Below are positions 673 through 60,330 of a stretch of DNA of 64,000 bases, in pieces (position 1 is the first letter of the stretch; the number at the start of each line of letters is the position of its first letter). The stretch is from Prosapia bicincta (lineage: Eukaryota > Arthropoda > Insecta > Hemiptera > Cercopidae). The stretch covers positions 62,735,898-62,799,897 of the forward strand of contig JBAIZL010000006.1 in assembly GCA_036971475.1 (NCBI GenBank), read 5' to 3'. Under the pieces are notes generated by a model, which was not told where the DNA came from, searched no databases, and saw only the letters and a list, made by a program, of their open reading frames with translations. Both the position numbers and the translations under genes were made by a program.

Positions 673-682
673 TGTGATTTAA

Positions 683-726
683 AATAATACATGTTTCAAC
701 TGCCAAGGTGTCATCATCAGTGACAA
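683..726 (-). ncRNA. Hammerhead ribozyme motif, ACAUGU stem III
   Basis: On the minus strand CUGAUGA (714-720) is followed by one unpaired U. A short stem II then forms (GACACC with CAGUU, imperfect), followed by GAAA (694-697) and the palindrome ACAUGU plus A at the expected cleavage position. Stem I pairing is weak, so this copy may be inactive. The family assignment rests on the shared core and palindrome. Confidence 0.55.
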
Positions 727-742
727 GTATACACTCAGTTAG

Positions 743-786
743 TGTATCTCTGATGATGACAGCTTGGCTGTTGAAAATACTAGAAA
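743..786 (+). ncRNA. Hammerhead ribozyme motif, degenerate stem III
   Basis: CUGAUGA at 750-756 is followed by U and a good stem II (GACAGC / GCUGUU around loop UUG), then GAAA at 773-776. The palindromic stem III expected after GAA is mutated to AAUACU, so self-cleavage is doubtful. It is the mirror partner of the motif at 683-726. Confidence 0.5.
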
Positions 787-1114
787 AATAAAGTGACTTT
801 TTAATTATATTTGTGAGATTTGAGTTACTTTGCATATTTGCTGCTATCTTTATTTTCGCATACCTCGCTCAAAAGTGAATTGCAGATGTTGTTGTAAAAG
901 TGATTTAATATCATACATGTTTCTACTATCAGGCTGACACCATCAATGAAACGTGTACTCAGTCAGTGTATCACTGATGACGGCAGCTCGGAAGTAGAAA
1001 CATGTTTAACATTAAGGTCACTTTTTAAAATCTATTTGTGAGATTTGAGTTACTTTGCATATTTGCTGCCAACGTTATCGTAGGCCTTGCTTAAAAGTGA
1101 ATTACAGTTTATGT

Positions 1115-1779
1115 TTTAAAATTCTCTATCCAATTAATCTAAACAAAAAGTACCATACAAAAGTACTCGTTTATAATTTACAAAAGACTTTCCATGTCTG
1201 TAGCCTCGAATTACATGGAAGGACATCACAACTCGAAATAAGACACACGAAAAGAATTAATTTTGATAACATAATTCGTAGAATACTAATGTCTTATGAT
1301 CATTTACAACGGTAAGTTGACTCGTAAATACAAAGCATCCTAACCTTAGAAATTCTTTAATAACGTTTACAATTTTAAACAAATTTTAAGGTAACAACTT
1401 CTTTTTTGATAAATAAGATGTTTCACATGGCTTCATCTTAAATTTGAGAGAAGAGCCTCATTTTTATTTTGAGATATGCCTCATTTTCAAGTCGAACCGT
1501 GGTCAAATTAACATAGTTTTTCCAACGGCGTCCTCCTACAATACATGCATAAGTAGAGGCGCAGCGAGATGAATTTTGGAAACTGAACCTCCCGACAAGG
1601 ATTATTAAGTTTTTAAAAGTCTTTTATATGCTAAACAATTATTTAAAACTATTAATTGGTCAGTTATACAAGAAATTTAATATTAATTTCAAAGTGTCGT
1701 AAGGAAATTAAAATATTATGAGTTCCAAGATAGCTTTCATATAAAACTAGTTGATATTACGTATTTAATAAACAAGAGA
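1115..1779. other. No feature recognised
   Basis: AT-rich intergenic DNA. I see no gene, repeat boundary or RNA gene in it. Confidence 0.5.
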
Positions 1780-2830
1780 CTTCAATGTGCATTGCTTCAA
1801 TACACGTTGTTGATGGCCGTTTATTGGAAACTTCCAAGGGGCGCCTAAATGGACTGGCTGGGCTGTTACAGAGGACGGGGTTCTCAAGTCTACAATACTC
1901 GTTACTTGTAAGTAGTATTGCGTTTTATGAAAATAAAAGTTAATATCTGCTCTTAAGGCTCTCATGGTCTAACCAGGTCCCAAATCCGACTATCCGCCTC
2001 TTAGGTAAAGTCAACCGAGAGTGGATAAAGGTCCGATTGCACTACCTGGACCGAACTAAACGGGGTACTGAGTTACAGAAACTACTGGTCCCGAGTAGTT
2101 CTAGAAACGCGGACGAAACCTTATAATCTGAATTGAGTCCGTCACGTCCCAATCACCAATCCAGGCCTTACAGGGAGGTCGCAAGACTCTTGCATATTGG
2201 TACCACGGGTCGTGACACCAAGGTCCCCATCTCGAGCCTAGTCACCCAGGCGAGTGTCACGATTTTGAGGTTGGATTCGTGGGGGTAGTGGTTTCACACG
2301 CTAGACTGCGGATTCCCCACATAAGGAAATATCTTTCTGTACATTGACAAGTAGGAGAGTCATCAGAACCAGGTATCCTTGTCAACGCTCTTCTCTCTCT
2401 TACCATCTTTCTTTCTTCTATATTCTCTAACAATACAATGCCGAATGTCTGCTTTAAAGACATTGTTGTTGTCGTGTCTATTGAGGTGTAAAGTGCAAAA
2501 AGTTCAGATTCCTTCAAAAGTCTTGATGACAAGATCTGCCAGCTCTGCAGCCCAATGGCTATGAAGTATTTTAATTGGTGGTGCTTCAAGGTGAAGGAGG
2601 TAATGGGCAATAATTTGGCAGTTAAAACATGATCTAGGAATAGTTGTGATTGGGGACAAAAGTTACAAATGGGATAAGATTTTATAATAGTTGGGGATAT
2701 CTCCCACTCAGTACGGGACCCTATAACTGACACTGAGGGCGTTCCTAGGTGGCGGATAGGGAAATACTTCTGCACAGGTTCGCCCTATGAGAAGTAGGAG
2801 GGGAATAAAATACCTCCCGCGGTCCAAATA
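1780..2830 (-). mobile_element. Non-LTR retrotransposon 3' end (decayed ORF2 tail plus 3' UTR)
   Basis: A GC-richer island in AT-rich DNA. The minus-strand ORF at 2257-2775 carries CNFC, then about eight residues, then H, with a cysteine after a frameshift (C-x2-C-x8-H pattern). This is the zinc-knuckle-like motif often found near the C-terminus of Jockey/R1-type ORF2 proteins. Past the knuckle the reading frame shifts (HYLLHLEAPPIKILHSHW in one frame, HHQLKYFIAIGLQ in the other), so it is a relic. GC-rich sequence after the stop (about 1950-2256) would be the 3' UTR. It could instead be an unrelated unique region; no reverse transcriptase domain remains. Confidence 0.4.
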
Positions 2831-3849
2831 GGCGGAGGTTCAACCTTTTTGGAGGCAGTGACACCCCCTTTCTATGAATGTGCAAAGACGTTGTTATTTC
2901 TTGCAAACGTTAGACCTGATTTCATTAATAAGTCTCGACACATACTTAAAATAATATTCGTTGAGTATTCATTAAATATATAATGCATTTAAATTTAAAA
3001 TAAATTTTATTCAAGAATTTTTTTCAACTTTTTTGTTCTGGTTCTAAGTGTGAGAATGGCATAAAAAGAATTTTCAAAGATTTCCATTCGGGTATGAATT
3101 CGTTCTCAATCCCCCTACAAATGCTAAAACCCACTCCACTTCCCCCAGAAATTATTTTTAAAACAGTCATCATTAGTAGCACAAGTTTAAGATGGATAGA
3201 AGGAAACGTATTGTATAGTAGCATTATCAAGGTACTGAGAACTTGGCAAGACGTTATACACACAACCTTTTTCTTCTTTGCTAGCTGTAGGCCGAAATAC
3301 AGGAACACTTGGCATTTAGGTAGAAATTATGTATTTGTCGAATAGAAAACATCTGGCAAAGTCGTCATCCCCCATCGGGACCATAAATCGCGGCCTACCA
3401 GTCCCAAGCCTTAGACAATCCTATTAGCACGCTTCCGTGAACGCCCTATTTACATTTTTTTTGTTATTTATATCATACATTAAAAAGTATTAATAAGTAA
3501 CAAAATAATCGTCAACCCTATGAGTCAGCGGAAATGCAAGAGTCGATGTCTTTGAAAATGACCTGCGAGCACCTCCACCCTCCTCTTCCCAAGGCAGAAC
3601 CAAAATCTCAGCTTACAAAATTTGACCTGTAGCGTTGTTTCAACCTTTTTTGTTATCAAATATGCATTGATTCTTCACACTACTCGTCATTCATAGCGAA
3701 CTTGTAGGACTACTTTTAACGAACTCTCTCTTTCAATAACACAAAAAGTGCAGTGAATATTAAAATAAACAAGATTTTATTTTATCAAACATTTGTCAAA
3801 CATACTTTACCATCAGCAGACATATACAATTTTTAAAAAAAATCAAAAT
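2831..3849. other. No gene recognised; short GC-richer patch at 3360-3620
   Basis: The ORFs here (3024-3308 minus, 3094-3345 plus) have no recognisable domain. The GC-richer patch could be more of the neighbouring LINE, but I could not place it. Confidence 0.4.
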
Positions 3850-4050
3850 AAATCATTTATTTTCTCGGACGAGTTTCAATGTCGATTTTATCATCATTAC
3901 TTATTATGATGTAACTATTACTATAGTTTAGAATAACTTACATCGTAACTGGTTATAGTTTAGAATGTTTGTAGTTATATTGATGATGTTAACTTTGTCA
4001 CTGAAACGAGCAAGAGAAGATAAATTATTGGTTGTGAGATAATGTTACTA
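3850..4050. mobile_element. Inverted-repeat hammerhead element, ACGYGT family, decayed
   Basis: Arms around 3850-3900 and 3985-4045 are inverted copies. The plus arm reads TTGATGATG, AACTTTGTCAC, GAAACGAGC. The minus arm reads ATGATGAT, GACATTGAAACTCG. Both resemble the elements at 49.5 and 57.7 kb. C3 of the core is lost in both arms and the ACGYGT palindrome is broken, so no active ribozyme is expected. Confidence 0.45.
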
Positions 4051-4698: not shown

Positions 4699-4740
4699 GA
4701 CACACACAGCCTCACTCCCTCACGCGCGCACACACACACC

Positions 4741-4809
<69 letters not shown>

Positions 4810-4843: not shown

Positions 4844-4879
<36 letters not shown>

Positions 4880-5168: not shown

Positions 5169-5306
5169 GGTGTGTGTATATATATATATATATATTTTAA
5201 AACAACACAGGTTATTCAAATACAAGAATATTTATTATTTATTAAATAATAAATATTCTTGTATTTGAATAACCTGTGTTGTTTTAAATTATTAAACAAG
5301 AAAACG

Positions 5307-5348
<42 letters not shown>
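5122..5348. repeat. Perfect palindrome flanked by two (TA)n tracts
   Basis: (TA)n at 5122-5195 and 5309-5348 enclose a perfect 93-bp palindrome (5196-5288). Its arms start TTTAAAACAACACAGG and meet at an AT-rich centre. The arm contains AAATACAAGAAT, also seen in the arms of the TA-flanked hammerhead foldback at 13.7 kb. I infer it is a truncated member of that class that has lost its ribozyme centre. Confidence 0.8.
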
Positions 5349-12697: not shown

Positions 12698-12725
12698 CAG
12701 TAAAACTTTAAAAACTAAAACAGAT

Positions 12726-13433
12726 GGTAACTGTTTAGTTTGCTAAACCGGGCCTATATTTTCATGAAACATTCAGAAACATGTAAAAAGGCCTTTTCAT
12801 TGAAAAGGCTGTTTTCTGTGCCTAGAAACATTATTTTTTCTTAAATTAAAGTTGGGTAAAATTTTCAGCGGGGATGTAGCAGTTGTGAATAGCCTGCCTG
12901 GCTCTCGGAGGGATACACGACATCACAAATGTACCAACCGTTACACTTGGATAATGTGTAGAATTACGTTTTGGCATAATTTTAATGAATTTAACAAAAT
13001 AAAAGTATAAAATATGAAGTATCCAGTCAGGATAGATTTGGTTCTAATTGTATAAATGTAACCATTTAGGTAATATATAAAATTAAAACCAAATCTAACC
13101 TAACTGGAGACTTTATAAATATATTTAAATATATGTATAAAAATTAAGCCAAAACGTTTCTCAAATATCTACACACGTAAGGTTGCGTGACATACGTAAG
13201 GAGCCGATGCGTACAACTTTATGCGCAGCACTGTGACGTAAAAAAACATTTGTATCACTCCACGCCCATTCACAACTTCTACATCCGCGCTGAAAATTTT
13301 ACCCAACTTTAATTTAAGAAAAAATAATATTTCTAGGCACAGAAAAAAATAATTTCAATAAAAATAGCCTTTTTACATGTTTCTGAATGTTTCATGAAAA
13401 TATAGGCCCGGTTTAGCAAACTAAACAATTACC
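12726..13433. mobile_element. Long-TIR MITE with 8-bp target duplication (hAT-like)
   Basis: A 708-bp imperfect palindrome. Left terminus GGTAACTGTTTAGTTTGC; right terminus, reverse complemented, GGTAATTGTTTAGTTTGC. The arms match for about 190 bp, including TTAAAGTTGGGTAAAATTTT on the left and its complement on the right. The target duplication AAACAGAT is exact (12718-12725 and 13434-13441). Eight base pairs fits hAT (or P) superfamily integration. There is no coding capacity, so the element is non-autonomous. Confidence 0.85.
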
Positions 13434-13510
13434 AAACAGATATCTTCAAATTACCAAAACAAAATTCATTATAACATAATAGGTTTTTATTTTTAAAGCA
13501 TCCTTTTAAG

Positions 13511-13681: not shown

Positions 13682-13731
<50 letters not shown>

Positions 13732-13929
13732 CAATATGTATTCTTGTGTATTAGTAAAGAACTAAGTCAAAATACAAATACAAGAATTATTGAATTTACA
13801 ATATAATTGAATATTCCTGATGATGTTGGTACTGTTAGCCAACGAAAAGCTTTGATTTGTAAATTCAATTATAATTCTTGTATTTGTATTTTGACTTAGT
13901 TCTTTACTAATACACAAGAATACATATTG

Positions 13930-13990
<61 letters not shown>
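13514..13990. repeat. Three (TA)n tracts separating two foldback inserts
   Basis: (TA)n at 13514-13561, 13684-13729 and 13932-13990. Between the first two lies a foldback (13562-13683; arms ATGAAGTTAATATAT and ATATATTAACTTCAT). Between the second and third lies a hammerhead foldback (13730-13931; arms GCAATATGTATTCTTGTG and its complement, about 65-70 bp each). The 13562-13683 insert shares ACTTCATAAAGTCAGTGCAA with 45985-46158. Confidence 0.85.
13810..13860 (+). ncRNA. Hammerhead ribozyme motif, AAGCUU stem III
   Basis: CUGAUGA (13817-13823), one unpaired U, stem II GUUGG/CCAAC around loop UACUGUUAG, then GAAA (13844-13847). The residues from the last A form the palindrome AAGCUU, followed by U at the cleavage position. 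Stem I is short (C-G, U-A, mismatch, A-U). Stem III is too short for a good monomer, so dimer pairing through AAGCUU is expected, as described for PLE hammerheads. It lies at the centre of a TA-flanked foldback. Confidence 0.8.
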
Positions 13991-14569: not shown

Positions 14570-16366
14570 CATAAAGTGGAACCCCTCAAATCCAAACTAA
14601 TTGGACTAAAGCCAGTTTGGATTTTGGATTTGCTGGGTATTTTGCAATTGACAGAATTGCGTTTTTCTTTAATAAGGAACAATAATGGAACATTCATTAC
14701 ATATTTCTGTATCAAAAATTAAAGTTTTCTAGTGATACAAGTGAAAAGTCTTTGGAACAATGCCATCGCTCGAAATTTTAAGTGAATGAAAAAAAGAGAT
14801 GCAGAAAGGAGTTCCTATTAGTTGCCCATTAATACAAGAAAAGGCATTACACTCAAACAAATTAAAGAACAGTGATTTGGAATTCACTGATAGCAATAGA
14901 TGGTTGGATAGATGGAAGAGAAGGCACGGAATTAGATAACTAACGGTAAGTGGGAAAAAGGTTTCAGTTGAAATTCTAGCTGCAAAAAAATATTTAGACA
15001 AATTCACAGATTTGAATTCGTCTGAAAATTACTCACCCCAGCAAGTGTATAATGCGGACGAGACTGGATTGAATTTTAAAGCCCCTCCCACTAAAGGTCT
15101 TGTTTCTAAAGAGGAATCTTCATTGCTAAGCTTTAAAACGAGCAAACATCATCTCACAGTTTTAACTTACAGTAACGCCGCAGGAACAAATAAGCTACCA
15201 TTAATGATGATTGTAAAATCTGCCAAGCCACAAGCCCTAAAAATATGAACTTGAATCCTCTCCCTGTTCCTGATTACTGAAATCAGTGGAAGGTGTGGGT
15301 GACTGGTAATATTTTCAAGGAGTGGTTAAAAAATGAATTTGTTCCTTTAGTTACAAAATTTAATGAAAACAATGGACTGCCACCAAAAGCCCTACTTTTG
15401 ATAGACAATGCTCCTTCACATCTTTCAGTCATGGAGTTGGTATGTAAAGACATATAAGTAATTTTTCTCCCACCTAACTGACATCGTTGCTTCAGCCTAT
15501 GGATCAAGGTTTGCTGCAGTACACGAAACTGAGTTACAGAAAAAAAGCTTCTGCAAACATTAATTAAAGACGATTGTTCTCTTTCTATTCCAGGAAAACT
15601 TAAGTCGATTACAATAAAGGATGTAATTTACTGGGTAGCTGAATCCTGGAATAATATCAGGAACACTTTACTGCAGAAACCTTGGGAGAAGCTCTGGCCC
15701 AGCCTCGAATTTGTAGAAACACCACTTACACCATGGAATGATGAAACTGAAATCTCTCAGCTCTCATTCAAAGAGTACCAGAATGTGAAGATGCTAAAGA
15801 AAGTTGCCTAAAAGAGTTGACAGCACTAGATAACAATGAAGAAAATACCAAGCATGTCATGGTGTTTATGACCCAGGATTAACATGATGACAGTGTAGCA
15901 GAGAGCGATAGCAAAGAAAAAGATGCCTCTACGAATGCTGCTACTCATGCCGTCTCTCTTGACATTGTGTTGCGTTACATAGAACAACATGCACCTACAA
16001 CACCCAATGATGTTATGCTAATGCAATGGTGGCTCAACATCGCATTCTCTGGAAGGTTTACGCCTCTTCGCTAGATGAAGATTACTGATTTTAAGTAAAC
16101 TATGTAGTTTAGTGTTTGTCTTTTTATTTTTATTTTACTGTCAATAAATTCTATGTTTAAGAAGTGATACAGTGGTACAGTATAGGCCTTCGTATTATAT
16201 CATTTTTTACAGTGTCAATTCCAATATATTGCACATCTCAGTCCTGTTTTAAGTAAGTAATAAACTATCAGTACATACTTCATTAAATTTTAAACACTTT
16301 TTTAAAATTTGGTTTTCTTTAAATCATGTTTGGATTTCTGGGGTTTGGATTTGAGGGGCTTTACTG
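14570..16366 (+). mobile_element. pogo/Tigger DNA transposon, decayed
   Basis: Terminal inverted repeats AACCCCTCAAATCCAAAC (left) and GTTTGGATTTGAGGGGCT (right) end in ...TTACTG|TA. That is the usual CAG...CTG with a TA target. The interior encodes a pogo-type transposase in order: CENP-B-like helix-turn-helix residues NRWLDRWKRRHGIR (about 14890-14935), first catalytic Asp in YNADETG (about 15048-15068), LTVLTYSNAAGTNKLPLMM, then LLLIDNAPSH with the second Asp (about 15395-15425). The size (1.8 kb) is near full length. Stops after HGIR, after PQALKI and after CKDI, plus frameshifts, make it inactive. Confidence 0.88.
14840..15830 (+). pseudogene. Tigger transposase pseudogene
   Basis: The longest open piece is 15012-15248 (NSSENYSPQQ to AKPQALKI). 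The frame is actually open from about 14840 except for one TAA after HGIR. After 15248 the frame must shift to recover VTNFNENNGLPPKALLLIDNAP (split here only by what can be seen) and later KSITIKDVIYWVAESWNN. DDE-superfamily endonuclease; would cut at the TIRs of the surrounding element. At least three stops and two frame changes. Confidence 0.8.
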
Positions 16367-25625: not shown

Positions 25626-26104
25626 TCCTCCTAAATTTGTATAGTTTAATTATTTTATAAATATTTGAAAAAACTGTATTAAAATCAACTATCCACTATA
25701 GGTTAAAAAAATGTATTTGAACATAATTGGATGAATAAAAACGTATTTTATTAACAATCGAAAATTTGTTTACGATATATATCAGGAGAGTGAGCAAATA
25801 GAAGGGATTAAAAAAGAAATGGATATAAACTGTAATATATGTTCAACATCATTAGTCAATGTTTATCTATCTGCTTGTAGTGTGAATTTTAAATGATACA
25901 AATAAATGCCCTAATGAGTGTTGTTTGTTGGCCTTATCACAATGGACTTACTGGTCTGAATATCACGATAGGCAGTTCAATATTGTTTTAGTTCATTACT
26001 ATGGTTTATTACCTAAAATTTATTTTCTATTTTATTAGTTACAAATATTTTATTTTGATCATTAGTTACAAATCATTACAATTAATTTGTATTAATATGT
26101 GCAG

Positions 26105-26903
26105 TTAACATCCTATTAAGTTGACACCCTATTATGTTGACATCCTATTAAATTGACATCCTATCAAGTTGACATCCTATTTAGTTGACACCCTATTAAG
26201 TTGACATCCTATTAAGTTAACACCCTATCAAGTTGACACCCTATCAAGTTGACATCCTATTAAGTTAACATCCTATTAAGTTGGCATCCTATTAAGTTGA
26301 CACCCTATCAAGTTGACACCCTCTCAAGTTGACATCCTGTTAAGTTAACATCCTATTAAGTTGACACCCTATTAAGTTGACTTCCTATCAAGTTGACACC
26401 CTATCAAGTTGACATCCTATTAAGTTGACACCCTATTAAGTTAACATCCTATTAAGTTGACACCCTATCAAGTTGACATCCTATTAAGTTGACACCCTAT
26501 TAAGTTGACACCCTATTAAGTTGACACCCTATCAAGTTGACATCCTATTAAGTTCACACCCTATTAAGTTGACATCCTATTAAGTTGAAACCCTATTAAG
26601 TTGACACTCTATTGAGTTGACATCCTATTAAGTTGACATCCTATTAAGTTGAAACCCTATTGAGTTGACATCCTATTAAGTTGACACCCTATCAAGTTGA
26701 CATCCTATTAAGTTGACACCCTATTAAGTTGACACCCTATCAAGTTGACATCCTATTAAGTTCACACCCTATTAAGTTGACATCCTATTAAGTTGAAACC
26801 CTATTAAGTTGACACCCTATTGAGTTGACATCCTATTAAGTTGAAACCCTATTGAGTTGACATCCTATTAAGTTGACATCATATTAAGTTGACATCCTAT
26901 TAG
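26105..26903. repeat. 16-bp minisatellite, about 50 units
   Basis: Unit TTGACAyCCTATTAAG, with variants TTAACA, TTCACA, TTGAAA, CTATCAAG and TATTGAG. A longer period of 13 units (208 bp) is visible: TTCACACCCT recurs at 26553 and 26761 with the same order of variant units around it. No ORF runs through it. Confidence 0.95.
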
Positions 26904-29146: not shown

Positions 29147-29581
29147 ATGCCGGCCAGTGGGCCAGTATACCAGCCTACAACAGTCAGTTACGAACAACAA
29201 AATGAGTGGGCGAGACCTGGTAGCTATCTATCTCAGACAATGAGCAACAGTATGCGTGGCACTAGATGTATCCAATGGCTGTTTCTTGCGTTAGGAGTAT
29301 TCTCAGTTTCTGCAGGGATCATAATGGTTGTCGAAGGAACTGTTGATTTTACAGACACACACAAACATGAACTAGAAGATGAAAAAGGAAATGTAATTCC
29401 TTCGGGATCATCTGCTACTAACCTTGTAATTACAATTTTGGGAGTGTTTTTAATAATATTAGGCATTTTATTTCTTGGAGTTTATGTTCGACTGATTAGA
29501 AGAAGAAAAGGCTGTCCTTGTTTCCCAACTAAGGAACAAAGATTAGCTAGGCAGTTGGATACTCAGGTCGCAAATGGGCAG
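29147..29581 (+). CDS. Two-pass membrane protein, unrecognised; coding exon 1 of 3 (residues 1-145)
   Basis: The 271-residue protein is joined from 29147-29581, 34193-34329 and 45124-45367. This exon starts MPASGPVYQP (context AAAATGC) and ends ANGQ, followed by donor GTAAGA (phase 0). Residues 1-41 are polar and Tyr/Gln-rich, with no signal peptide. Residues about 42-64 (IQWLFLALGVFSVSAGIIMV) and about 92-114 (LVITILGVFLIILGILFLGV) are membrane segments joined by a charged loop of about 27 residues. Then comes RRRKGCPCFPTKEQ, a positive stop-transfer with two Cys that could be acylated. By charge both ends should be cytosolic. Coding quality and splice phases make the gene convincing; I do not recognise the family or function. 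Confidence 0.88.
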
Positions 29582-30849: not shown

Positions 30850-31050
30850 TATTTACAGCAATGGTGTCATCATTAGTGGTGGGTAAACTCCCCTATTTTA
30901 AATGTTTATCTATCACTGATGATTACAAATTACTGTCAACACATGTATAAGATTAAAGACATTTTTAAAAGTATATAGAGAGAGTTTGGTTTTTTATAGC
31001 TTTGGCACTATTATTATTTTTAGCTATAAAAGTGAATTACATTATGTACC
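30850..31050. mobile_element. Diverged single unit of the ACATGT hammerhead family
   Basis: ACATGTATTTACAGCAATGG, TGTCATCATTAGTG on one side and CACTGATGATTACA, CAACACATGTATAAG on the other are inverted, followed later by AAAGTGAATTACAT as in 673-1114. Stem II and GAAA are lost in the right arm, so no ribozyme is expected. Confidence 0.55.
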
Positions 31051-31302
31051 TTTCTAAAAACATATAGTCAACACCAATATATCTGCCAATCCCTGTCATT
31101 CCTGTGCTCCTTAGTAGATTACTCTTCTCTCAGATGAGGGACCTACCACAACTGATCTAACATACAATAGCAAGCCGGAAATGGCCATATATTTAAGCTA
31201 TGAAGGGAGGGGTAGATACATGTACTTGATCGAAATAAAACCATATACTATCTAGGAATAATATTGGGTGGCCTCTAAGATTGTTCTACAGGCAATAATT
31301 TA

Positions 31303-31460
31303 TTCTCTTGAATTTTGTAGTCCATACATTCAGTGAATCTTAATTAATCACTTTAACATTAGTTTACGACTATCTGAACTTTAGACAGGTTTCAGTAAGC
31401 TTTCACAAATTTACAAAATTCAAAGTTTGTATAGTCATAAACTAATGTTTAAGTGATTAA
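31303..31460. mobile_element. Truncated foldback, AACGTT Penelope family ends
   Basis: CTCTTGAATTTTGTAGTCCA, TTAATTAATCACTTTAACAT and TAGTTTACGACTATC are followed by an inverted copy (ACAAATTTACAAAATTCAAA, AGTCATAAACTAATG). These are the outer ends of the element at 35265-35895, without its ribozyme or coding part. Confidence 0.7.
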
Positions 31461-34937: not shown

Positions 34938-35006
<69 letters not shown>

Positions 35007-35199
35007 ATAAATTTAAAATATTTCAAACACAAGAAATATTTCTTGTGAAATATTTTTTATTAGATAATTATTTTTCCTGAAGATGCTGATACTTTTTTAT
35101 CGGCGAAAAGCTTTGAATAAATATATTCATTAAAAGTATTCTTGTGTTTGAAATATTTTAAATTTATTAACTATATATAAAAGAAAACATATCACCATA

Positions 35200-35245
<46 letters not shown>
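34938..35245. mobile_element. TA-flanked hammerhead foldback, AAGCTT family
   Basis: (TA)n at 34938-35004 and 35203-35245. Arms TAATAAATTTAAAATATTTC, AAACACAAGAA and their complement about 35128-35170. The ribozyme lies in the loop. Confidence 0.8.
35070..35118 (+). ncRNA. Hammerhead ribozyme motif, AAGCUU stem III
   Basis: CUGAAGA (35077-35083), one unpaired U, stem II GCUGAU/AUCGGC around ACUUUUUU (one G-U pair), GAAA (35105-35108), palindrome AAGCUU, then U. Stem I: UUC before the core pairs with GAA after the cleavage site, then a U-U mismatch and two more A-U pairs. Confidence 0.8.
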
Positions 35246-35247
<2 letters not shown>

Positions 35248-35264
35248 TTGAATTTTGTTTTCCA

Positions 35265-35895
35265 TTACATTTGGTGAAACTTAATTAATCACTTTTACAT
35301 TAGTTAATGACTATCCAAACTTGAACTTTTGTAAATTTGTAAACACTTACTGAGACAGAACGTTTTCGATCGCTCCGTGGCGATCTTCACCAGTGTCTTC
35401 TGCTTGGAGTTGTTAGGTTAAGTAATGATGGTTTTAAAGTTAGGTTTTTAATAGTATCAAAGAGTATGTGTGATTTATATTTAGTTTGTTCATTTAATAT
35501 GTTTGTATTTTGTGTGTTTGTAAATTTCATATTGTTCTAGTGTGTTGAGATGCGGTCTTTTTTGTTGATGTATAAGATTTCTAGGTTATGTTAATCTTAC
35601 AAATCAACAAAAAAGGACCAAATCTCAACACACTAGAACAATATGAAATTTACAAACATACAAAATACAAACATATTAAATAAACAAACTAAATACAAAT
35701 CACACATACTCTTTGATACTATTGAAAACCTGCCTTTAAAACCGTCATGGTTTAACCTAACAACTCCAAGCAGAAGACACTGGTAAAGATCACCATACAG
35801 CGATCAAAAACGTTCTGTCTTTGTGAGGTTTTAGAAATTTACAAAATGTAAAGTCCGGATATTCATAAACTAATGTAAAAGTGATTAAATATATA
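35265..35895. mobile_element. Inverted dimer of Penelope-like 3' ends, with endonuclease tail and hammerhead
   Basis: Two arms of about 300 bp (35265-35578 and 35597-35895) meet head to head around a 16-bp spacer. Read outward, each arm has the PLE C-terminal coding tail, then a hammerhead-like motif, then the terminal TAATGTAAAAGTGATTAA. The plus arm reads KKGPNLNTLEQYEIYKHTK, shifts frame, then ILNKQTKYKSHILFDTIEN. The left arm ribozyme (minus, 35360-35396) has CUGGUGA (A6 changed to G), stem II GAUCGC/GCGAUC, GAAA, palindrome AACGUU, C. The right arm copy has further changes (CTGGTAA, CAAAAACGTT). Both copies are 5'-truncated. Confidence 0.75.
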
Positions 35896-36761: not shown

Positions 36762-38699
36762 ATATATAGATCTAATCAAAACCTTAATGGACTTTGCAAC
36801 AAGTCTGAGTGGGTTTCAAATCAGGTCACAAATTCCACAGCATGTGTCAAGTGGTAGACAGAAGAGGCGGGGTTTGCTTTACAACTTATCTAAAATCTGT
36901 CGACTTTCCAACCATTAATTTTTATTAAAGCATTTTTTTTAAATATCGGTTGTAGTTATAGAAAATATGCCTCCAAATTTCTATGTTGAAATTTAACTGA
37001 AAAGGTTTAATAATCTTTTATTGAAGGTCAACAGTTCTGTTAACCTTTGAATGTATTGCATATTACCAGTCTTATTAGAGTCATAATTTAATCTGAAATT
37101 ATTTTGAATTAAAAAACCTATAATCTGTGCGTAAATTTATTGAACAAATAATTAAACCCTAAAAAATAATATTTAAATTATATTCTTGATAAAATAATAC
37201 ATTATTATATTCATTAACAATGTGGATATCTTCAATCATCTGACAATATTGTTTTAAATATTATGGTATACTTCATTATTGTTTTTTTTAGATTTAATTT
37301 TGGTTTTAATGAAATAAAAACGTTTTGTCAGTTTTTTTTAGAGATGTTTACATTTGATGTCTTAATTTGGATTTCTTCAAATTAAATTTTTTTTTATACT
37401 TATAATTCTTAAAATAATTTTTTTAAATTTTCTTTGCTTCAAAAATTAAGAATCTCACCTGCTCAGAAATTGAGTAATTGCTCAAAAATGTTTGTTGAAT
37501 AATTATTTTTTAATAAGAATCCGATTTCTTTCTTAGCTTTATTTAATTAGTATTTTTTTAAAACTCCTTATTGAAAATATTAAATTTAGTGTCTTACAAA
37601 TTTAAAAGATAATACTATTATTTAATTTTGGATTTATGAATGCATGAATTTAATACAGAATGATTCATTTTTTGAAACCTATTAAAATAATCATCTTAAA
37701 TACATATTTGTGGATTATTTTTGTTGACAAATTTTTACGTATTTCCCTGCATATCAAATCTGAAGTGAAACTGGTCTCTAAAGCAGCTAATATTCTGTTC
37801 TTTATTCTTATGCCTGAGTTCTTATCACCGAGTAATAAAATTGTATCTGTGCCATGGTCATTAACTGTAAACAGGCCTACACTTAATTAAAAACTATTTC
37901 AGATTAAAAATAGTTTAGTTTAAACTTCAACTACAAATAATGGAAATAATTTTATGTTTAGTTAAATAATAACATTTCATAATATATTAGTGTTTATTCT
38001 GAGTTTTTAAAAATATAAAAAATTATTTAATTATATAAACTACATAAATAGAATCCTTGTTTGTGTTCTTCAATTGCTTTGACTGAAAGTATGTAACTGC
38101 TAAAGGATAGCGAACAATATTTTTAACTAAAAACATCTTACATAACAGATTTTTCGTAAATTTTAGCACATATTTAAACAAAATAAAAAATTAACCTAAT
38201 ATTGTATGAGTTTAGGCTGTGTGTGCTATTACTTGGCTTTTTTTGCTTTGAGTGTTAACTAACAAGGCATGTGTTTGTTTGAATGTAGTACTGAAGAGAG
38301 TGAGCGTATGCTGGAACCGGATCCAAGGATTGTACTTAGGCCGTTGAGCCACGCTGAAGATGCATAAGCTATATATTTTCAGGTAATATAGGAACAAAAG
38401 CATTTTAGTTTTATTATTTATTTTGTTGCTCAGTTGTATATCCATTAATTTGCTCTATAGTATGATTTGAAATTAATTGCTTCTGCATAGACTATTAGAA
38501 GAAGCTTTTGGTTGAAATTTAACTGTAAGATGTTTATTTTTTTTAACATAACCCACTAAATATCATACTACAGGATTATATACTGTGTTTCAAAAACTCT
38601 CCTCAGTATTTCTGAACTTATTTTTATATAATCTCTTTCACTTCTGATCATTTTAAGCCTGTCTTGTTTTAATTTTAATAAATACATCTTCTATACCAG

Positions 38700-38860
38700 A
38701 AATAACTTTTTCATTTATTTATTTACCCTTCGTACATTTCAATTGCATAGTAATCAGGTTACCTAAGGAAGTTTATTTTGTAAATTACCTCTGAAGATAG
38801 TTGCCATGCAATTGAAATGTTCATAAGGTATTAAATTAAAGAAAAAGTTTTTTGTGGTAT
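38700..38860. mobile_element. Inverted-repeat hammerhead element, AUGUACAU family
   Basis: Left arm AACTTTTTCATTTATTTATT, ACCCTTCGTACATTTCAATT. Right arm AATTGAAATGTTCATAAGGT, then ATTAAATTAAAGAAAAAGTT. The minus-strand ribozyme in the left arm has a broken core (CUGAUUA). The plus copy is well kept. Related to 59831-60078. Confidence 0.75.
38784..38832 (+). ncRNA. Hammerhead ribozyme motif, AUGUUCAU stem III
   Basis: Stem I UACCU (38786-38790) pairs perfectly with AGGUA (38826-38830). CUGAAGA (38791-38797), U, stem II AGUUGC/GCAAUU around CAU, GAAA (38814-38817), AUGUUCAU (palindrome with one U-U mismatch), A at the cleavage position (38825). The best-paired single motif in the window. Confidence 0.85.
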
Positions 38861-38951
38861 ATAGGTTCTATTTATTTAAATTAAACATTATACCACAGTT
38901 GGTTTTTACAGTTACTTTTTTCTTCTGTTCAGTCTCCATACTCGTATATAA

Positions 38952-39285
38952 AACTATTTAATCACTTTAACATTAGTTTACGACTATTCGAACTTTAAAT
39001 TTTGTAAATTTGTAAAAACTTACTCTGTGGACTGCAGCCTGGCTTGCTGTGTTAAACTCTTGAATTGTAGTCCATTACGTTTTGTGAATCTTAATTAATC
39101 ACTTTAACATTAGTTTATGACTATCGGAAGTTTAAACTGTAAATTTGTAAAAAACTTACTTAAAAAATGAGTAAGTTTTTACAAATTTACAAGATTTTAA
39201 GTTTGAATAGTCATATTATACTAGTGATTAACATGTTAAAATGATTCACCGAACGTAATGGACTACAAAATTCAAGAGTATATAA
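38952..39285. mobile_element. Three end fragments of the AACGTT Penelope family
   Basis: TTTAATCACTTTAACATTAG, TTTACGACTATTCG at 38958; CTCTTGAATTGTAGTCCATT at 39056, again with TTAATTAATCACTTTAACAT; and an inverted copy ending ACTACAAAATTCAAGAG near 39280. No coding or ribozyme part. Confidence 0.7.
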
Positions 39286-45756: not shown

Positions 45757-45984
45757 ACTTCTAACAAGAATTTTCTTAATTAATTTTTCAAGAGTTAGTT
45801 TAGATTTTTGTTAGCACTTTTAATGTATTTGTAGAGCAGAAAAAAGTTTGTTTTTAACAAAATTAAATGAAATCATTTATTTCTTATTATTTTCATGAAA
45901 CATGTTGCACAAGTTAAACAAATTTTTTGCATTAATATGTATATGTATACAACAATATTTATATCTAATTATTGTTATTATTAT

Positions 45985-46156
45985 TATTATTACTTGTAAA
46001 TAATTTTTTCCACCACTAAGTGCAATGATTCTACCTTATGTGATGAGGCATCTTTCGGTCACTTGACCATTGTTGAATCACTCCTTATTTACAAGTAATA
46101 AGAATAACTTCATAAAGTCAGTGCAACGGAAAACTAATGGACAACGTGAAATATCA

Positions 46157-46158
<2 letters not shown>
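45985..46158. mobile_element. Foldback related to 13562-13683
   Basis: ACTTGTAAATAA and TTATTTACAAGTAATAA are inverted. ACTAAGTGCAATGATTCTAC and ACTTCATAAAGTCAGTGCAA are shared with the 13.6 kb insert. The minus strand has GGTC/GACC followed by GAAA, hammerhead-like only in its 3' half. Confidence 0.6.
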
Positions 46159-46210
<52 letters not shown>

Positions 46211-46390
46211 CTTTGCAACACTGTTTTATTGTATTCACTTATCACTTTCACTATATGTACTTAAACAAGAATCTTATTTGGTATTTATGCGAGTTAACTT
46301 TCAAAGATTGATAGTATCTCCATCATCAATTATCACTGAACGGGGGTTGTAGTAGACTCTAAGATTCTTGTTTAAGTACATATAGTGAAA

Positions 46391-46444
<54 letters not shown>
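46159..46444. mobile_element. TA-flanked foldback, AGUUAACU hammerhead family
   Basis: (TA)n at 46159-46209 and 46394-46444. Arms ATCACTTTCACTATATGTAC, TTAAACAAGAATCTTA and their complement at 46355-46396. GCAACACTGTTTT at 46215 also borders the TA tract at 5.02 kb. Confidence 0.75.
46288..46336 (-). ncRNA. Hammerhead-like motif, AGUUAACU stem III, core C3 changed
   Basis: Minus strand: UUGAUGA (C3 to U; 46323-46329), U, stem II GGAGAU/AUCUUU with G-U pairs, GAAA (46299-46302), perfect palindrome AGUUAACU, C. Stem I is poor. Probably inactive. Confidence 0.5.
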
Positions 46445-46449
<5 letters not shown>

Positions 46450-46651
46450 AATTTTGCTTTAACAATATTGTAATTGATTTGGCATAACTATTTATTTGAT
46501 CTAATTTGCAAATATGTTAATTTTAATTGTTTAATATTCCTGATGATGTTGGTACTGTTAGCCAACGAAAAGCTTTGAATTGTAAATTCAATTTTAATTC
46601 TTGTATTTGTATTTTGACTTAGTCCTTTATTAATACACAAGAATACATATT

Positions 46652-46706
<55 letters not shown>
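46445..46706. mobile_element. TA-flanked hammerhead element, AAGCTT family
   Basis: Right part (46530-46655) matches 13811-13931 closely, including ATTTTGACTTAGT and TACACAAGAATACATATTG, and ends in (TA)n at 46655-46706. The left arm is diverged or replaced. Confidence 0.75.
46531..46582 (+). ncRNA. Hammerhead ribozyme motif, AAGCUU stem III
   Basis: Stem I AUUC (46536-46539) pairs with GAAU (46577-46580). CUGAUGA (46540-46546), U, stem II GUUGG/CCAAC, GAAA (46567-46570), AAGCUU (46570-46575), U at 46576 before the predicted cut. All core residues are intact. Confidence 0.85.
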
Positions 46707-49473: not shown

Positions 49474-49718
49474 TAAAACAAATAAAAGATGTACACAAAC
49501 TCACAAATTAACCATTTATTAACCCAGACATATTTCAATGAAAAAGTCATCATCATCAAAGTGTTGCTATTACAAACTCTAATGTACAACTAATAGCAAC
49601 ACTCATGATGATGATGACTTTATCATTGAAACGCGTCTGAGTTAATAAATAATTAATTTGTGAGTTTTGTGTACATCTTTTATTTGTAACCTCACAAGCT
49701 CAGCTCAAATAATAGTTG
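49474..49718. mobile_element. Inverted-repeat hammerhead element, ACGYGT family
   Basis: Arms AAAACAAATAAAAGATGTAC (left) and GTACATCTTTTATTTG (right). After the right arm comes an extension ACCTCACAAGCTCAGCTCAA to about 49718, which the left end lacks. A one-sided extension beyond the repeat is a known PLE feature. The plus ribozyme has stem I ACUCA/UGAGU, GAAA and a perfect ACGCGU palindrome plus C, but core C3 is deleted. The minus copy has UUGAUGA and a broken palindrome. No clear target duplication. Confidence 0.75.
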
Positions 49719-52700
49719 AAATTCTATTAATTTATTGTTTACATTATAATATAACTAAAAAAATCTCAAGAATTACAACCATAAACTACTAGGATTAAAT
49801 GTCTGTTTTTTAAATGTTTTATCGAGCAATTACATCACAAATAGATTAAATTTCAAGTAAAGTTAACTGGAATAATTTTATTATTAAGCACAAACCATCT
49901 GCACCATAAGAAGTGTAATTTGAGTTGATTATTTAAGACGATTTTGATAAGCTTATTTTCTATAACACAATATATAAGCTTATTTTGTATAAGTATATAA
50001 TTTAGTTTTTACTAAAATGATTATTTTTACTAATTCATTATCAAGTAACCTGTGTATTTCAGATCTTGATAAGTAGATACCTAATTGAAAATGCAATAAA
50101 GCTGTTTGAATCTATATTTAGATACTTTTCCAATATTTTTAAAAATAAAACTTCAAGCTGTAGTTATAGATATATCTTTTGTATATAAAATTTTCTTAAA
50201 CATTTAAAGAAACCGTGTACTTAAATGAATAGATAAGGGCAATTTAAGTGTTCTGTAAATGTTATGTGGCGTTGAAATAAAAAGTGAAAATGTAACTGCT
50301 GAGAGTATTTATAGATCAGTATTGTCTACTAGTAATTTCTAATAAAATAAGTCTATTAAATAAATTAATATTTTTTCATAGCCACAAATTTTCTTGCAAA
50401 AATAGCTTAAAACGAACAAAAATATATCTATGGATGCCTGCTATTTCACACACAAAATTTTAATACCAAGATAATGAATCTCTTTGTTTATGTTTAAAAT
50501 GACTTGTATATGATATTCTCCACTTTTGCTTTCTCTCTTAGTGTAAAAATTAAGATACAAAGGGTTAAGGCCTCTCAGTTCAATGTTGTTACTGTTTGTG
50601 TGCTATTTTATTATAAGGAATTGTCTGAGTTTTAATACTATATGAAAACACAAGTTCATGCACAATTATTTTTCGATATTTTGCTTCGAATGTAATGTAG
50701 GTTCTCTCGGGTTAAGGAGGATTCCACACAAGACTAAAATGGTATTAAATTGAGTGAATATTTTATAGTTTAGTTTTTATTTTATTTTTTAATAATAGTG
50801 CATAAATGTTAAATATTATTGTTGGCATAGGTTGTTGATTTCTATTCTCATCATAGTTATATTTTTTGTATGAATATATATGTGTTATGTAACATGAGTG
50901 ATATTTTAATAGTTAAGTTATCTTGTAAATTATTGGCTAAAATCGCTTTTATAATATGCAATATTATAAAAGTAATTGTAGAAATAAACTTTTATTCTAA
51001 GACAGCTTTTACTTTAAGTGATCTGTAATATTTTTTCTATAAGTATCAGCAGCTATCAATTTTTATGAGAATATTTTATTACTTGTTTTTTGATCTATAA
51101 GTAAATTATTATAACCTTAATTAATTTGCATCAGATGTGAAAACAGTAGCATTATAAAACTTGGTAATAACGAAAGTTAAGTAAGTATTAATGCCAAAAT
51201 TTAGGATTTTAGAAGTTGACTTTATTCAATGTTTTTCCAATTTAAAAATATTTTCTATATTTTGCTACTGTTTATAACTGGTGTTCATTACACAAGCCTA
51301 TATTTGCAGCTATTTAGCGATTTTTTGTTTACTTACTTCATCACATATATAAGTATAAAAATCAATAGTCAGTTTTTAGCATAAGTTTTGTTGTATATAA
51401 TTTACATTCCTTTGTAGGTGAACCGGATTAGAATGCCGCTGTACTACGGATCATTAAAATGCTCAGTTTCAATGTAGTTTGTGAGTACTTTTAGAATGAG
51501 TAAACATTGCAACCAAACAGGGTAATACCAGAGAGCACTTATACAAATAGAGTAGTCATCTAATGAATTAGACATAGGGAGATACTGCAGCCGAATTCGC
51601 CATCTTGGCTGGGGGAAAAATCCTCCAATACCGTGTCATGCAAGGGACAAAATTAAATAAAAACTTTCACCTAAATCAGGGTTTAAACCACTTAGAGTGG
51701 GAATTAAATTTTGAAACTTGGCAGGTAAAAGCAGCATGATAGATTGAACAAGAGTTACACTTTAAGTAACATGAAAACGTTACTAAGCGACAATTTTTCG
51801 TATTTGTTGGTTAGAAACATTTTGTAAAAGTTTGAGATAATTAGTTAGATTTTATATTCTTTTTATTACATGTTTGTAGGACCTTTGGTTTACTGCTAGT
51901 GAAATGGTAAAGTAAATGGTTTTTAAATGCTGCGCGTCATATTTTCACCGAAAACTGCAGGCCTATACTCGTACGTAGATCACAGCTTTTGTTCCTGTAT
52001 GCATATATTTCTAAGTATTTCGTCAATAAAATAATTTTAACTTATGAAAATAATTACCTTTTTCCATACAAATTAAAATGAATTTAATTAGATAATATGA
52101 AGTTTCTCTATTAAAACTTTATTTTTATAAATGTTTTAAGAAGATGCTAAAGATTTATTTGTACAACAGCAAAATTATATTGGGCTACAAGGCCTTTTAC
52201 TTTCTGACATATATTAAAATACAAAAAACTATTGTGATAATAAAATAGTATAATAGTGTGAAAAATATAAATGTTGAGATCTCCTTATCCAAACTGTATG
52301 TATGAATGTAAAGGTCTGTGGGTCGGAATCCCAACCTACAACAACAAATACTGGTCCGATTTTGCTGAACTTCGGAACATTTATGTCCATTCTGTTAAGA
52401 AACGGAAAAGGTATTTGGAAACATTAAAAAATAATCTATAGTTGAAACTAAAATTTTAAAATGATGATCTTTCTTTGAAAATATTCTATACATTTATGTG
52501 CACTAACCTCTTATAGATGGACGGTGAGTGGTTTATAAGTAACAAAGTTATCTTTCAAGCAAAGCAATATTAAAAGTATAGCATTTTATGTTTTGTATTT
52601 ATGTGAGAGAGTTTGTGTCAGCCACCTGGTACCGTTTATTTGTAATAACTCCCTATTTTTTAAAATTTTGTGATAGGAATATTACATGAATATAATTACT

Positions 52701-57229: not shown

Positions 57230-57646
57230 GGCTGGGAGGACATTGGAGCAAGCCTGCGCCGGGCCTAGTATTGGTACTACATATCGGTTATACTGCATTC
57301 ATCCATACTAGAGGCGGATCTTCCGGTTTTCTAATACAAAAATAGCAATTGTTTTCTTTCAGGGCAGGACTGCCGATTGCAGTGTGCTAGTAGCCGATAG
57401 GTGCGCACGGTCAAAGGTTACTATGTTAATTTCATTTATGCTTGATTTTTTTATTATTTTGATGGGGGCCCGGGTTCCCCCACCGCTGTATATACTCGTA
57501 TCTGTGTGTCTATGTTTCATGGTTTCTCTTGATATAATAAAAAAAAGACACAATACAGTAATAGAAACTGAATTTATAAAAGAAATTCTGAAAGAAAAAT
57601 ATTAAAATAAAATTGTATCTAGAGAGTAATTAACATATTCAAAAGT
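57230..57646. repeat. Dispersed repeat, copy 1 left part
   Basis: Matches 62395-62795: GATCTTCCGGTTTTCTA, GCAGGACTGCCGATTG, GATAGGTGCGCACGGTCA, then GACACAATACAGTAATAGAA and AGAAATT. It is followed, after the hammerhead insertion, by the mariner-containing part at 59406. Class unknown; the short ORFs in it are not supported. Confidence 0.7.
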
Positions 57647-57689
57647 AAAAACAAATAAAAGGCATACACAAGACACAAATTAATCATTT

Positions 57690-57736
57690 ATTATTCATAC
57701 ACGTTTCAATAACAAAGTCATCATCATCAGTGAGTG
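57690..57736 (-). ncRNA. Hammerhead ribozyme motif, ACGUGU stem III
   Basis: Minus strand: stem I UCA before the core pairs with UGA after the cut. CUGAUGA (57724-57730), U, stem II GAUGAC/GUUAUU around UUU (two G-U pairs), GAAA (57704-57707), ACGUGU, A at the cleavage position. Confidence 0.8.
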
Positions 57737-57875
57737 TTGCTACTAAAAACTCTAACTTACATGTAAGGTTACAATTCTATATTTATACTGTGGTGTTGCC
57801 ACACCTACCTGTCAAAACAACAGTTCTTAACATTACTTCCTACAAAATAGATCAAATAGAAACTTTATACCTATA

Positions 57876-58486
57876 GGTGCGATTACTATACTACAACTGT
57901 AACGGCTACGGCCGTGTGGCTACAGTCGCGATTAATCCCGTACGATACGAGTCGCTCAGTTAAATTCTTATAGAGTGACTAGTACAGTTGCATTGTGAAC
58001 GTCACAGATCATTGTTAGCTGCAAATCTTCTGCTTGAAGAAGAGGAGGAAGAATAGTTATTATTGGCCGAGCTTAAGAAACTCAAGCCTTATCTAATTTT
58101 ATATATAAAAATTGAATACTTTACCTGATATTTTCATTACAACTGCAATTTCATCCCATACATTATCTCTGACATTCGAATCTTTGTATTAGTGGTGCTT
58201 TTGGTTATAAATGATGGGTGTTCTCCATCTCTAGAAGTTTGGAATCAATATGTTCGAACACATTGAAAATAAACACTCCAGTCGCCACGACAGTATGACT
58301 ACATCGCTCATGTCAGCAGTTGAGCCGTACGGTTCAAGCCGATTGACCAGAGTCGCCTCAGTTGCACGGCTCCAGATGCTCCTTACGAAACGATTACGTT
58401 TACTCATTAACAATGAGTCACTTTTCATAGCCGCTCGGCTAGAGCCACGCGACTAGTCGTTACAGTTGTAGCATAGGAATCGTACC
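57876..58486. mobile_element. MITE of unknown class
   Basis: TIRs GGTGCGATTACTATACTACA, ACTGTAACG and, complemented, GGTACGATTCCTATGCTACA, ACTGTAACG. 611 bp, GC-richer than its surroundings, with further inner symmetry (CTACGGCCGTGTGGCTAC against CGCGTGGCTCTAG). No clear target duplication. The two overlapping ORFs at 58231-58456 are mirror images produced by this symmetry and are not supported. Confidence 0.7.
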
Positions 58487-58525
58487 TTAACTCATTAATT
58501 ACAATAAAATTCTAATCCATACATG

Positions 58526-58740
58526 CAGTAAACTCCCGATTATCTGTGGGCGGATTATCCGGAGTTTGCCATTGTTTTACAAATATCCAATTTTTATTCC
58601 AATCAGATTCATGTGATTAAATTTCCAAACGGTGAATTACGACGTAAATACATATAAGGCTTAATAGAAGTTAAGATGAAGGGAATAGATTTGTAAATAT
58701 GTACATACTAATTTTTACTTTGAAAGGGAAGCATCCCGAC
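58526..58740. mobile_element. Left end of a Tigger-type element
   Basis: CAGTAAACTCCCGATTATCT, GTGGGCGGATTATCCG is a pogo/Tigger TIR. The right end was not found. Confidence 0.5.
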
Positions 58741-59220
58741 GTGGGCCAGCGAAATAAAAGGGGCGAACAAGGTGGCTATTAACACGTTCAGCACGGCGAG
58801 CATCCCAGCATGTTTTGGGTTCCCTTGCGACTCACTGAGGGCATGCCGGTGTGCTCCCTCTTCTCTTCCGAAGGACGGCGAGCACTCCAGCTAGCTCACT
58901 CTCAGTCTAATTGAAACTTCTCTGGTGTCGCTAAATGACTGTGTAAAGGTTTGATTTTTTTGTCAGTGCTTCAGAACAGTTTGGAGAACATTGTGCCTGA
59001 GTCGTTTTTAAATCCGACCATCGCAAATTAACTTTTTGGAGATTCGAATATTGGGTAAGTTATTAATGCTATATGTCTCTTATTTTTGTATTTTTAAACC
59101 ATTTTGACGTTTATAATGTTTTATAATTGCATTTTTGTAAAGACTTATTTTTTCCCAAAAAGTGGTGGTTTATTTTTGTTCTAATGTTTTTGAATAAACG
59201 TACTATTTTGTGCGTTTGTT
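58741..59220. other. GC-richer sequence with TTAACACGTTCAGCACGG at 58778
   Basis: The TTAACACGTTCAGC start resembles a piggyBac terminus but no partner end is visible. No ORF. Confidence 0.35.
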
Positions 59221-59289
59221 TTATTTATTAATTATAATCACGCTACTGTGGTCTATTGTTTTATTTTACATTGAATTTGGCCAAAGCTT
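59221..59289. repeat. 69-bp exact direct repeat, copy 1
   Basis: Identical to 59604-59672 (CTACTGTGGTCTATTG to GGCCAAAGCTT). Copy 2 lies in its natural place inside the mariner relic; copy 1 lies inside the hammerhead insertion, next to its right arm. Confidence 0.9.
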
Positions 59290-59911
59290 GTCATTGAAAC
59301 ATGTATGAGTAATAAATGAATAATTTGTGAGTCTTGTTTATGTCTTATTTGTTTTATACATAACCTCACAAGCTAAGCTTAAAGAATAGTTGTATATTCA
59401 AAAGTGAATTAAGGTGTAAAGAGAAAATTGAAATTTGGTGCCCAACTAGGACTTCTGTCAGAGAACGTTTTAAAGAAATAGAGATGGAAGGAGCAAAGGC
59501 AGTTGAGCACATACTCTTGTATCTTCTTTTTGTAACCTTATGATCATGCTAACTGTGTTAGCTAAATGAAATAAATGTAAATATTTGTAGCTAAGGTTTA
59601 TAGTTATTTATTAATTATAATCACGCTACTGTGGTCTATTGTTTTATTTTACATTGAATTTGGCCAAAGCTTTACTCATAGTGAATAATGTTTGAGAGGG
59701 TGCATTGTCATGGTGTAAACTTAATCATTTTTGATCTCTGAGTGGGCTGGGCACACAATCCATCGAACAATGGAGCACTTCAGATTAAAATGACTTTTGA
59801 CAGTTTGTCTTAATGAACAAACTCATTGAGACTATTTATTAGGAATATACTGTGGTTGAATTTAATAATAAATACACAAAAACCTCTTAACCACAAACTT
59901 TCTTTAATTTA

Positions 59912-59957
59912 CCCTTATGTACATTTCAGTTACAAAGTAACCATCCTCAGAGTGATA
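59912..59957 (-). ncRNA. Hammerhead ribozyme motif, AUGUACAU stem III
   Basis: Minus strand: CUGAGGA (59944-59950), U, stem II GGUUAC/GUAACU around UUU, GAAA (59924-59927), AUGUACAU, A. Identical to its partner from the core onward, but stem I has only two pairs. Confidence 0.75.
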
Positions 59958-59984
59958 ACATTCAAAGACTCAGTCTTTGTATGT

Positions 59985-60032
59985 TTTTCCTCTGAGGATG
60001 GTTACTTTGTAACTGAAATGTACATAAGGGTA
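59985..60032 (+). ncRNA. Hammerhead ribozyme motif, AUGUACAU stem III
   Basis: Stem I CCU (59989-59991) pairs with AGG (60027-60029) plus a U-G pair. CUGAGGA (59992-59998), U, stem II GGUUAC/GUAACU, GAAA (60015-60018), perfect palindrome AUGUACAU (60018-60025), A at 60026. Core intact. Confidence 0.85.
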
Positions 60033-60330
60033 AATTAAAGAAAGTTTGTGGTTAAGAAGTTTTTGTGTATTTATTATTAAACTCATTGAGGATAATTTCT
60101 TTAAAAATCAGACAAAACCAAGAGCTTTCTGGGCCTTTGGAGATGAAACTACTTTGCACTCTGCCACTCCATTTCAGGATTGTACTTGTAGAACCAGATC
60201 TCATCAGACATGACCATTTTATTCAGAGTAAGTTTGGCAGTCGCTTTTCTTAACATCAAAGCTTTTCACTAACTTGAATGGTAAAACCAATCCCACCATA
60301 GCCCAGAAAATCCCAAATCATCCGCAAGTA

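Follow-up and report, generated by a model that had tools for sequence, protein, structure and literature searches.

Short head-to-head insertions with minimal hammerhead ribozymes, probably of Penelope-like origin, in a spittlebug genome

What are the hammerhead-like sequences scattered through a stretch of spittlebug DNA, and how did they come to lie there? The question concerns 64,000 nucleotides (nt) of Prosapia bicincta (contig JBAIZL010000006.1, positions 62,735,898 to 62,799,897; hereafter the window), in which a first-pass annotation made from the letters alone had seen several families of ribozymes of Penelope-like elements (PLEs). Our analysis indicates that the loci are very probably short insertions without open reading frames (ORFs), derived from endonuclease-bearing PLEs: head-to-head pairs of pseudo-long terminal repeats (pLTRs), many of them carrying a minimal type I hammerhead whose stem III is very short and usually palindromic. 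The earlier observation is mostly right, in that the motifs are real and exceed chance, and its interpretation is right in kind; it overlooked an extra base beside the core and the head-to-head layout. This kind of element is already known; the fixed extra U and the positions of the inner ends seem to be new here, and the copies offer clues to the insertion route of such elements.

The work of Lunse, Weinberg and Breaker (2017) is reportedly among those that founded the study of minimal PLE hammerheads. In the available text of reviews, the hammerheads of PLEs are minimal type I variants without stem III, perhaps dimeric and of unknown role (PMC6155905, PMC7229834, PMC7761336, PMC6466107). Among the matches listed for literature on Penelope, transposable elements and hammerheads, no mention of a spittlebug was found.

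The hammerhead core and its extra U

The window was scanned for an exact CTGANGA followed by zero, one or two extra bases, a stem II with at least five of six pairs, and GAA. This strict scan returned eight sites with one extra base (750, 13817, 35077, 38791, 46540 and 59992 on the plus strand; 59950 and 57730 on the minus strand) and none with zero or two. All eight have the CUGANGA and GAA core of a type I hammerhead, and at none does stem II directly follow A9: one base intervenes, and it is T (U) in 8/8. This sets them apart from minimal PLE hammerheads as known from review descriptions. At seven of the eight sites an ATG is formed by the last core A, the extra T and the base that opens stem II (ATA at 38791), and the frames that begin there run for 4 to 16 codons before a stop. 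Possibly the extra U is the relic of an ORF start codon incorporated in the ribozyme, and its constancy provides a way to test whether the core of the ribozyme was moulded by an overlapping start codon.

When one core mismatch was allowed, the one-extra-base class grew to 14 rows including the strict sites. Five of the added rows represent four repeat-family sites (49602 and 49605, two registers of one plus-strand site; 49559, 46329 and 35393 on the minus strand), and a single one, 18367 on the minus strand, lies outside the repeat families. The zero- and two-extra-base classes yielded three and two rows at this setting, none within the repeats found by self-comparison. The earlier observation stands for the eight strict sites, but in three of the families named the core is damaged: TTGATGA in the AGUUAACU family, CTGGTGA (CTGGTAA in the other arm) in the AACGUU family and TTGACAA in the ACGGCCGU family. 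The cuts predicted after A38825, U46576 and A60026 agree with the core positions of strict sites.

Stems come at no cost where repeats are inverted, and a hammerhead core could be read into them by chance. Palindromes are many in the window, and one doubtful site (L, below) is probably such a case. In 100 dinucleotide shuffles, strict sites averaged 0.02 with a maximum of 1, compared with 5 in the real sequence. Because shuffling breaks up inverted repeats, we added a control in which the real sequence and the geometry stay fixed and the motif is permuted, so that the palindromic elements are retained. Under strict settings the true motif found 4 sites, against a mean of 0.0017 and a maximum of 1 for 1,199 permuted motifs. 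With one core mismatch it found 5 against a mean of 0.033, and 2 of 1,201 permuted motifs did equally well, which speaks for chance. Against it stand the strict permutation result and the composition of the strict sites: a single extra base in each case, and that base T every time. We regard chance as an extremely improbable explanation of the loci as a whole; for the strict sites it is already contradicted.

Stem II covariation was assessed on ten rows with a 3-nt loop, all copies from within the window, against 500 shuffles and slid registers. Paired cells reached 81.7%, compared with 68.1% after shuffling (0/500), 12 cells were changed on both sides versus 5.2 (0/500), and the covariation score was 0.544 versus 0.284 (0/500), with slid registers at 0.044-0.230. 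These three of the five measures favour a conserved stem.

Head-to-head arms, tails and insertion sites

Self-comparison revealed that long inverted repeats surround most ribozyme sites, and arm-to-arm alignment placed most ribozymes within small head-to-head units. Where AT/TA arrays abut elements, the arms extend as far as the array. Element H (59831-60078) has an intact ribozyme in both arms (59912-59954 minus, 59988-60030 plus; stem III ATGTACAT), and its arms are nearly identical over more than 100 bp. The left arm carries a 31-nt tail, and copies of AAACTCATTGAG at 59819-59830 and 60079-60090 form a 12-bp target duplication. Likewise, element 31 (31282-31460), a member of family I without a ribozyme, has a tail of ~39 nt on its left arm and lies between two AATAATTTATT copies, an 11-bp target duplication.

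Elements B, C and J are head-to-head units with one ribozyme near the apex and a truncated opposite arm. B (13730-13931, plus) lies between (AT)n arrays and holds a hammerhead at 13813-13857 with stem III AAGCTT and a 2-bp stem I. C (35004-35203, plus) holds one at 35073-35118, also with AAGCTT, and has a tail of ~32 nt on the right arm. J (46210-46393, minus), again between (AT)n arrays, contains a hammerhead-like sequence at 46287-46333 (core TTGATGA, stem III AGTTAACT) and a tail of ~30 nt on the ribozyme arm. Element E (46445-46654, plus), flanked by (AT)n arrays, is one unit with no matching left arm; its hammerhead spans 46536-46580, with the extra U at 46547, stem III AAGCTT and a predicted cut after U46576.

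Element D (38668-38885) is head to head, with a hammerhead at 38787-38829 on the plus strand, a non-palindromic stem III (ATGTTCAT) and a decayed opposite arm. Element F (49478-49720; right end placed by eye), also head to head, has damaged cores in both arms (49533-49563 minus, 49600-49631 plus; stem III ATATGT and ACGCGT) and a one-arm extension, on the right. Element I (35246-35882) is a 611-bp inverted repeat with a left tail of ~40 nt, stem III AACGTT and hammerhead-like sequences at 35354-35397 (minus, core CTGGTGA) and 35776-35819 (plus, core CTGGTAA). A1 (674-899) and A2 (900-1121) are tandem copies, 77% identical and each a head-to-head pair, whose ribozymes (694-724 minus, 746-776 plus, 970-1000 plus) have decayed helices. 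Hammerhead G (57694-57734, minus) has stem III ACGTGT with one G-U pair. The head-to-head element P1 (13563-13683) has a tail of ~34 nt, and in K (5196-5309) the right arm is ~22 nt longer. Several elements stand in line (P1-B, P2-J-E and C-I, P2 being a related copy of P1 at 45935-46158).

These loci combine a minimal type I hammerhead in a pLTR, head-to-head pLTRs and an optional tail of ~30-40 nt. Because the head-to-head arms, the tail confined to one arm, the duplications in the two elements where they are clear and the AT-rich targets fit published PLEs, we assign the elements a Penelope derivation; the same features back the first-pass reading of Penelope-type minimal hammerheads. In Adineta vaga, as far as the available text describes them, Penelope elements have head-to-head pLTRs, 8-10 bp duplications and a 31-bp tail that may be present on one inverted pLTR (PMC3846280). 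Junction palindromes, solo pLTRs and a preference for simple AT-rich targets are reported there too (PMC3846280). Those families carry reverse transcriptase (RT) and endonuclease ORFs, whereas here arms alone were found, and the available text of that paper does not contain the word 'hammerhead' (PMC3846280). Minimal PLE hammerheads resemble those described here in their type I core, very short stem III, supposed dimer cleavage and pLTR location, but they are tandem in the descriptions available, whereas the units here are head to head (PMC7761336, PMC6466107, PMC7229834).

PAc, a Poseidon element of Anolis carolinensis, shares the hammerhead in the pLTR, the tail and AT-rich cleavage sites, according to the available text, and differs in being autonomous and arranged in tandem repeats (PMC11167929). 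Its tail corresponds to the interval that separates two RT start sites, it cuts and extends both target strands, and its ORF starts at stem II (PMC11167929). The PAc ribozyme is described as cleaving only with protein, and no reads ending at the cut were found in that account (PMC11167929).

A route of insertion can be proposed from these comparisons. RNA of the pLTR would be transcribed from a start slightly upstream of the ribozyme. A PLE enzyme acting in trans would nick both strands of AT-rich DNA and prime cDNA on both, and this cDNA may begin at one or the other of two sites spaced by 20-40 nt, as the tails and PAc biochemistry suggest; a start at either site would explain why the tail is usually on one arm. 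The two cDNAs would then be united head to head, a process suggested by the structure that we observe. The ribozyme may cleave as a dimer through its palindromic stem III, according to the fold predicted for part of the units.

Two other kinds of mobile element deserve consideration. Palindromic remnants of DNA transposons (miniature inverted-repeat transposable elements, MITEs), moved by a transposase and containing hammerhead-like sequence without a role, would share the long inverted arms, small size and AT-rich sites. The arms here are unequal by an extension of 20-40 nt, their inner ends vary, the two clear duplications measure 11-12 bp, and both the core and stem II of the ribozyme have been retained from family to family, all of which makes a MITE origin very unlikely. 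Animal non-LTR retrozymes are small non-coding type I hammerhead elements (PMC7229834) that spread via circular RNA, and the non-coding nature, size, hammerhead type and AT-rich setting of the present loci, with A1 and A2 in tandem, would suit them. In the available description, however, retrozymes are direct tandem repeats with canonical hammerheads, whereas the elements here are head to head with a minimal motif, and only the decayed A1 and A2 are tandem (PMC7229834). A retrozyme identity therefore seems highly doubtful to us.

Set against the PLE derivation that we prefer are the following observations. Hammerheads in the window were returned by the motif scan, with its eight strict sites, but not by Rfam models, which gave none at gathering scores over the whole window and none at E values up to 10 in 38000-64000. 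Stem I was short in the first strict scan, at 2 to 4 bp in its five strict sites. The other two covariation measures for stem II showed no excess: 4 pairs were changed on both sides versus 3.2 after shuffling (199/500), and there were 9 further pair types versus 7.9 (162/500). Element 39 of family I (39053-39284) has a tail on both arms, and B has none. Clear target duplications were seen in two of the six elements inspected (H and 31); the flanks of D, F and 39 lack a clear one, and K sits in (AT)n. Contact with AT/TA arrays, recorded for 10 of the 14, holds partly by definition because, beside (AT)n, the boundary of an element was drawn where the array lies. Finally, 40 of the 42 ORFs with a length of 80 aa or more gave no match to RT or GIY-YIG endonuclease, and the other two, excluded from this comparison, are CA-repeat frames; we therefore name the elements ORF-less derivatives rather than autonomous PLEs.

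Element H lies within one of two copies of a longer repeat (57288-60346 and 62426-64000; 83-84% identity). The second copy was considered as a clean empty site and rejected, as it lacks not only H but also the duplicated target. A short minus-strand frame near 60207 and 63860 resembles, we presume, mariner transposases.

Palindromic stem III and the inner ends of truncated arms

A palindrome follows GAA at six of the eight strict sites (five Watson-Crick, one wobble), compared with 73 of the 2,298 GAA sites in the window (3.2%; 50 with Watson-Crick pairs only). At the level of families the count is 3/5 (3e-04), on our own grouping of the families. The palindrome is common at the strict sites, but it is not present in every family, as had been stated: 38791 has ATGTTCAT instead, 750 AATACT, and ACGTGT is palindromic only when a G-U pair is allowed. 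When two copies were co-folded, the palindrome paired between strands in five of nine units (E, B, C, the minus unit of H, and J), with stem II retained in four (E, B, C and the minus unit of H); the plus unit of H, D, G and I adopted other folds. Selection for dimer pairing, proposed earlier, fits both the palindrome excess and the co-folding but falls short of proof. Two units on opposite strands could not pair as a dimer inside a single transcript, so that dimers would have to arise from separate molecules.

In place of the seven or so lineages suggested by the first-pass annotation, we distinguish by eye two loop groups and family I. A 3-nt loop is seen in A, F, G, H, D and two decayed copies, Q and R, and a 7-8-nt loop in B, E, C and J; family I stands apart, L is doubtful, and the cores of J, I and L are damaged. 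A covariance model was built on eight rows of the 3-nt-loop group only, since family I and the two loop classes came out wrongly aligned in MAFFT. Its search gave 51 rows up to E 10, in which rows outside the training set included the plus arm of F (6.8e-05), Q (6.3e-04), R (0.036 and 0.13), I (0.047), J (0.084), B and E (both 0.27), the minus ribozyme of A2 (0.33) and C (6.2). It is this model that added Q (3976-4006, plus) and R, a pair spanning 30850-30929 (30850-30880 minus, 30912-30929 plus) in which ACATGT is retained and GAA lost.

Twelve arms, chosen by hand with L1, H, D, A, Q and R left out, were aligned to locate their inner ends. Three of the 12 begin upstream of the ribozyme and nine inside the unit. 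Counted from the predicted cut, the inner ends in family I lie at +2 or +5 (right arm of 31), +36 (left arm of 31), +7 (both arms of 39) and +7 (left arm of 38, a piece at 38951-39024), and elsewhere at +3 (left arm of B), +2 or +25 (left arm of C), +15 (right arm of J) and -18 (H prime). Five of the nine truncated arms, from four of seven insertions, end 2-7 nt past the predicted cut under both alignment settings. In the arm-to-arm alignment, the arms of H, A and F begin upstream of the ribozyme.

The ends just past the predicted cut would fit cDNA synthesis that stopped at the 5' terminus of cleaved RNA, and those of H, A and F would fit copying from uncut RNA. It is conceivable, though unlikely, that some of the inner ends are a footprint of ribozyme cleavage in vivo, with cleaved and uncleaved RNA both serving as templates and the dimer palindrome kept for this purpose. 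Several points tell against such a footprint: the clustering was noticed post hoc, on few events and without statistics; the inner ends of the right arm of 31 and of C move with the alignment settings; the three family-I insertions possibly share common descent; and A6 is changed in the only two complete family-I ribozymes, which argues against cleavage by those copies. The value of the elements lies in an anatomy that makes the role of the ribozyme countable: many mirror-image insertions that show tail, inner junction and target would allow a genome-wide count of ends at the ribozyme cut.

At the inner junctions of H and A1 (59960-59985 and 725-745), small palindromes surround ACTCAGT and the arms begin with AGT. 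This start presumably resembles the arthropod initiator and is perhaps the transcription start. The pLTR piece H prime, severed within the ribozyme, lies just past the first copy of a direct duplication (59221-59309 and 59604-59696; 91%).

Other copies and surroundings

P1, between (AT)n arrays, has no recognised ribozyme; a 774-column inverted repeat (12725-13434; 72% identity) lies beside P1 and B, and the scans made gave no ribozyme in it. K is a near-perfect palindrome between (AT)n arrays, without a ribozyme. The family-I pieces 38 and 39 (together 38951-39284) likewise have none, 39 being head to head. The ACGGCCGU site of the first-pass annotation corresponds to L2 (10037-10078, plus), with core TTGACAA; given its two core changes and a fold-back relative (L1, 4339-4514), L is doubtful as a hammerhead and was not counted.

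Rfam rows below gathering scores at the elements (lactis-plasmid, mir-2582, mir-881) and at AT repeats (mir-297, mir-1277) were taken as fold-back artefacts. A scan of viral contigs for the ribozyme of E, B and C gave 0 matches.

The window as a whole is AT-rich animal DNA. The best named match of a 155-aa frame at 29147-29611 is from the spittlebug Clastoptera arizonana (84% identity; top match 92%), with other Hemiptera next, which suggests a spittlebug-like hemipteran as the source. A frame at 14940-15248 has a weak DDE_1 match (E 0.00042, under the curated cut-off) and is a possible pogo/Tigger-type remnant, and a 16-bp tandem repeat occurs 50 times at 26103-26902.

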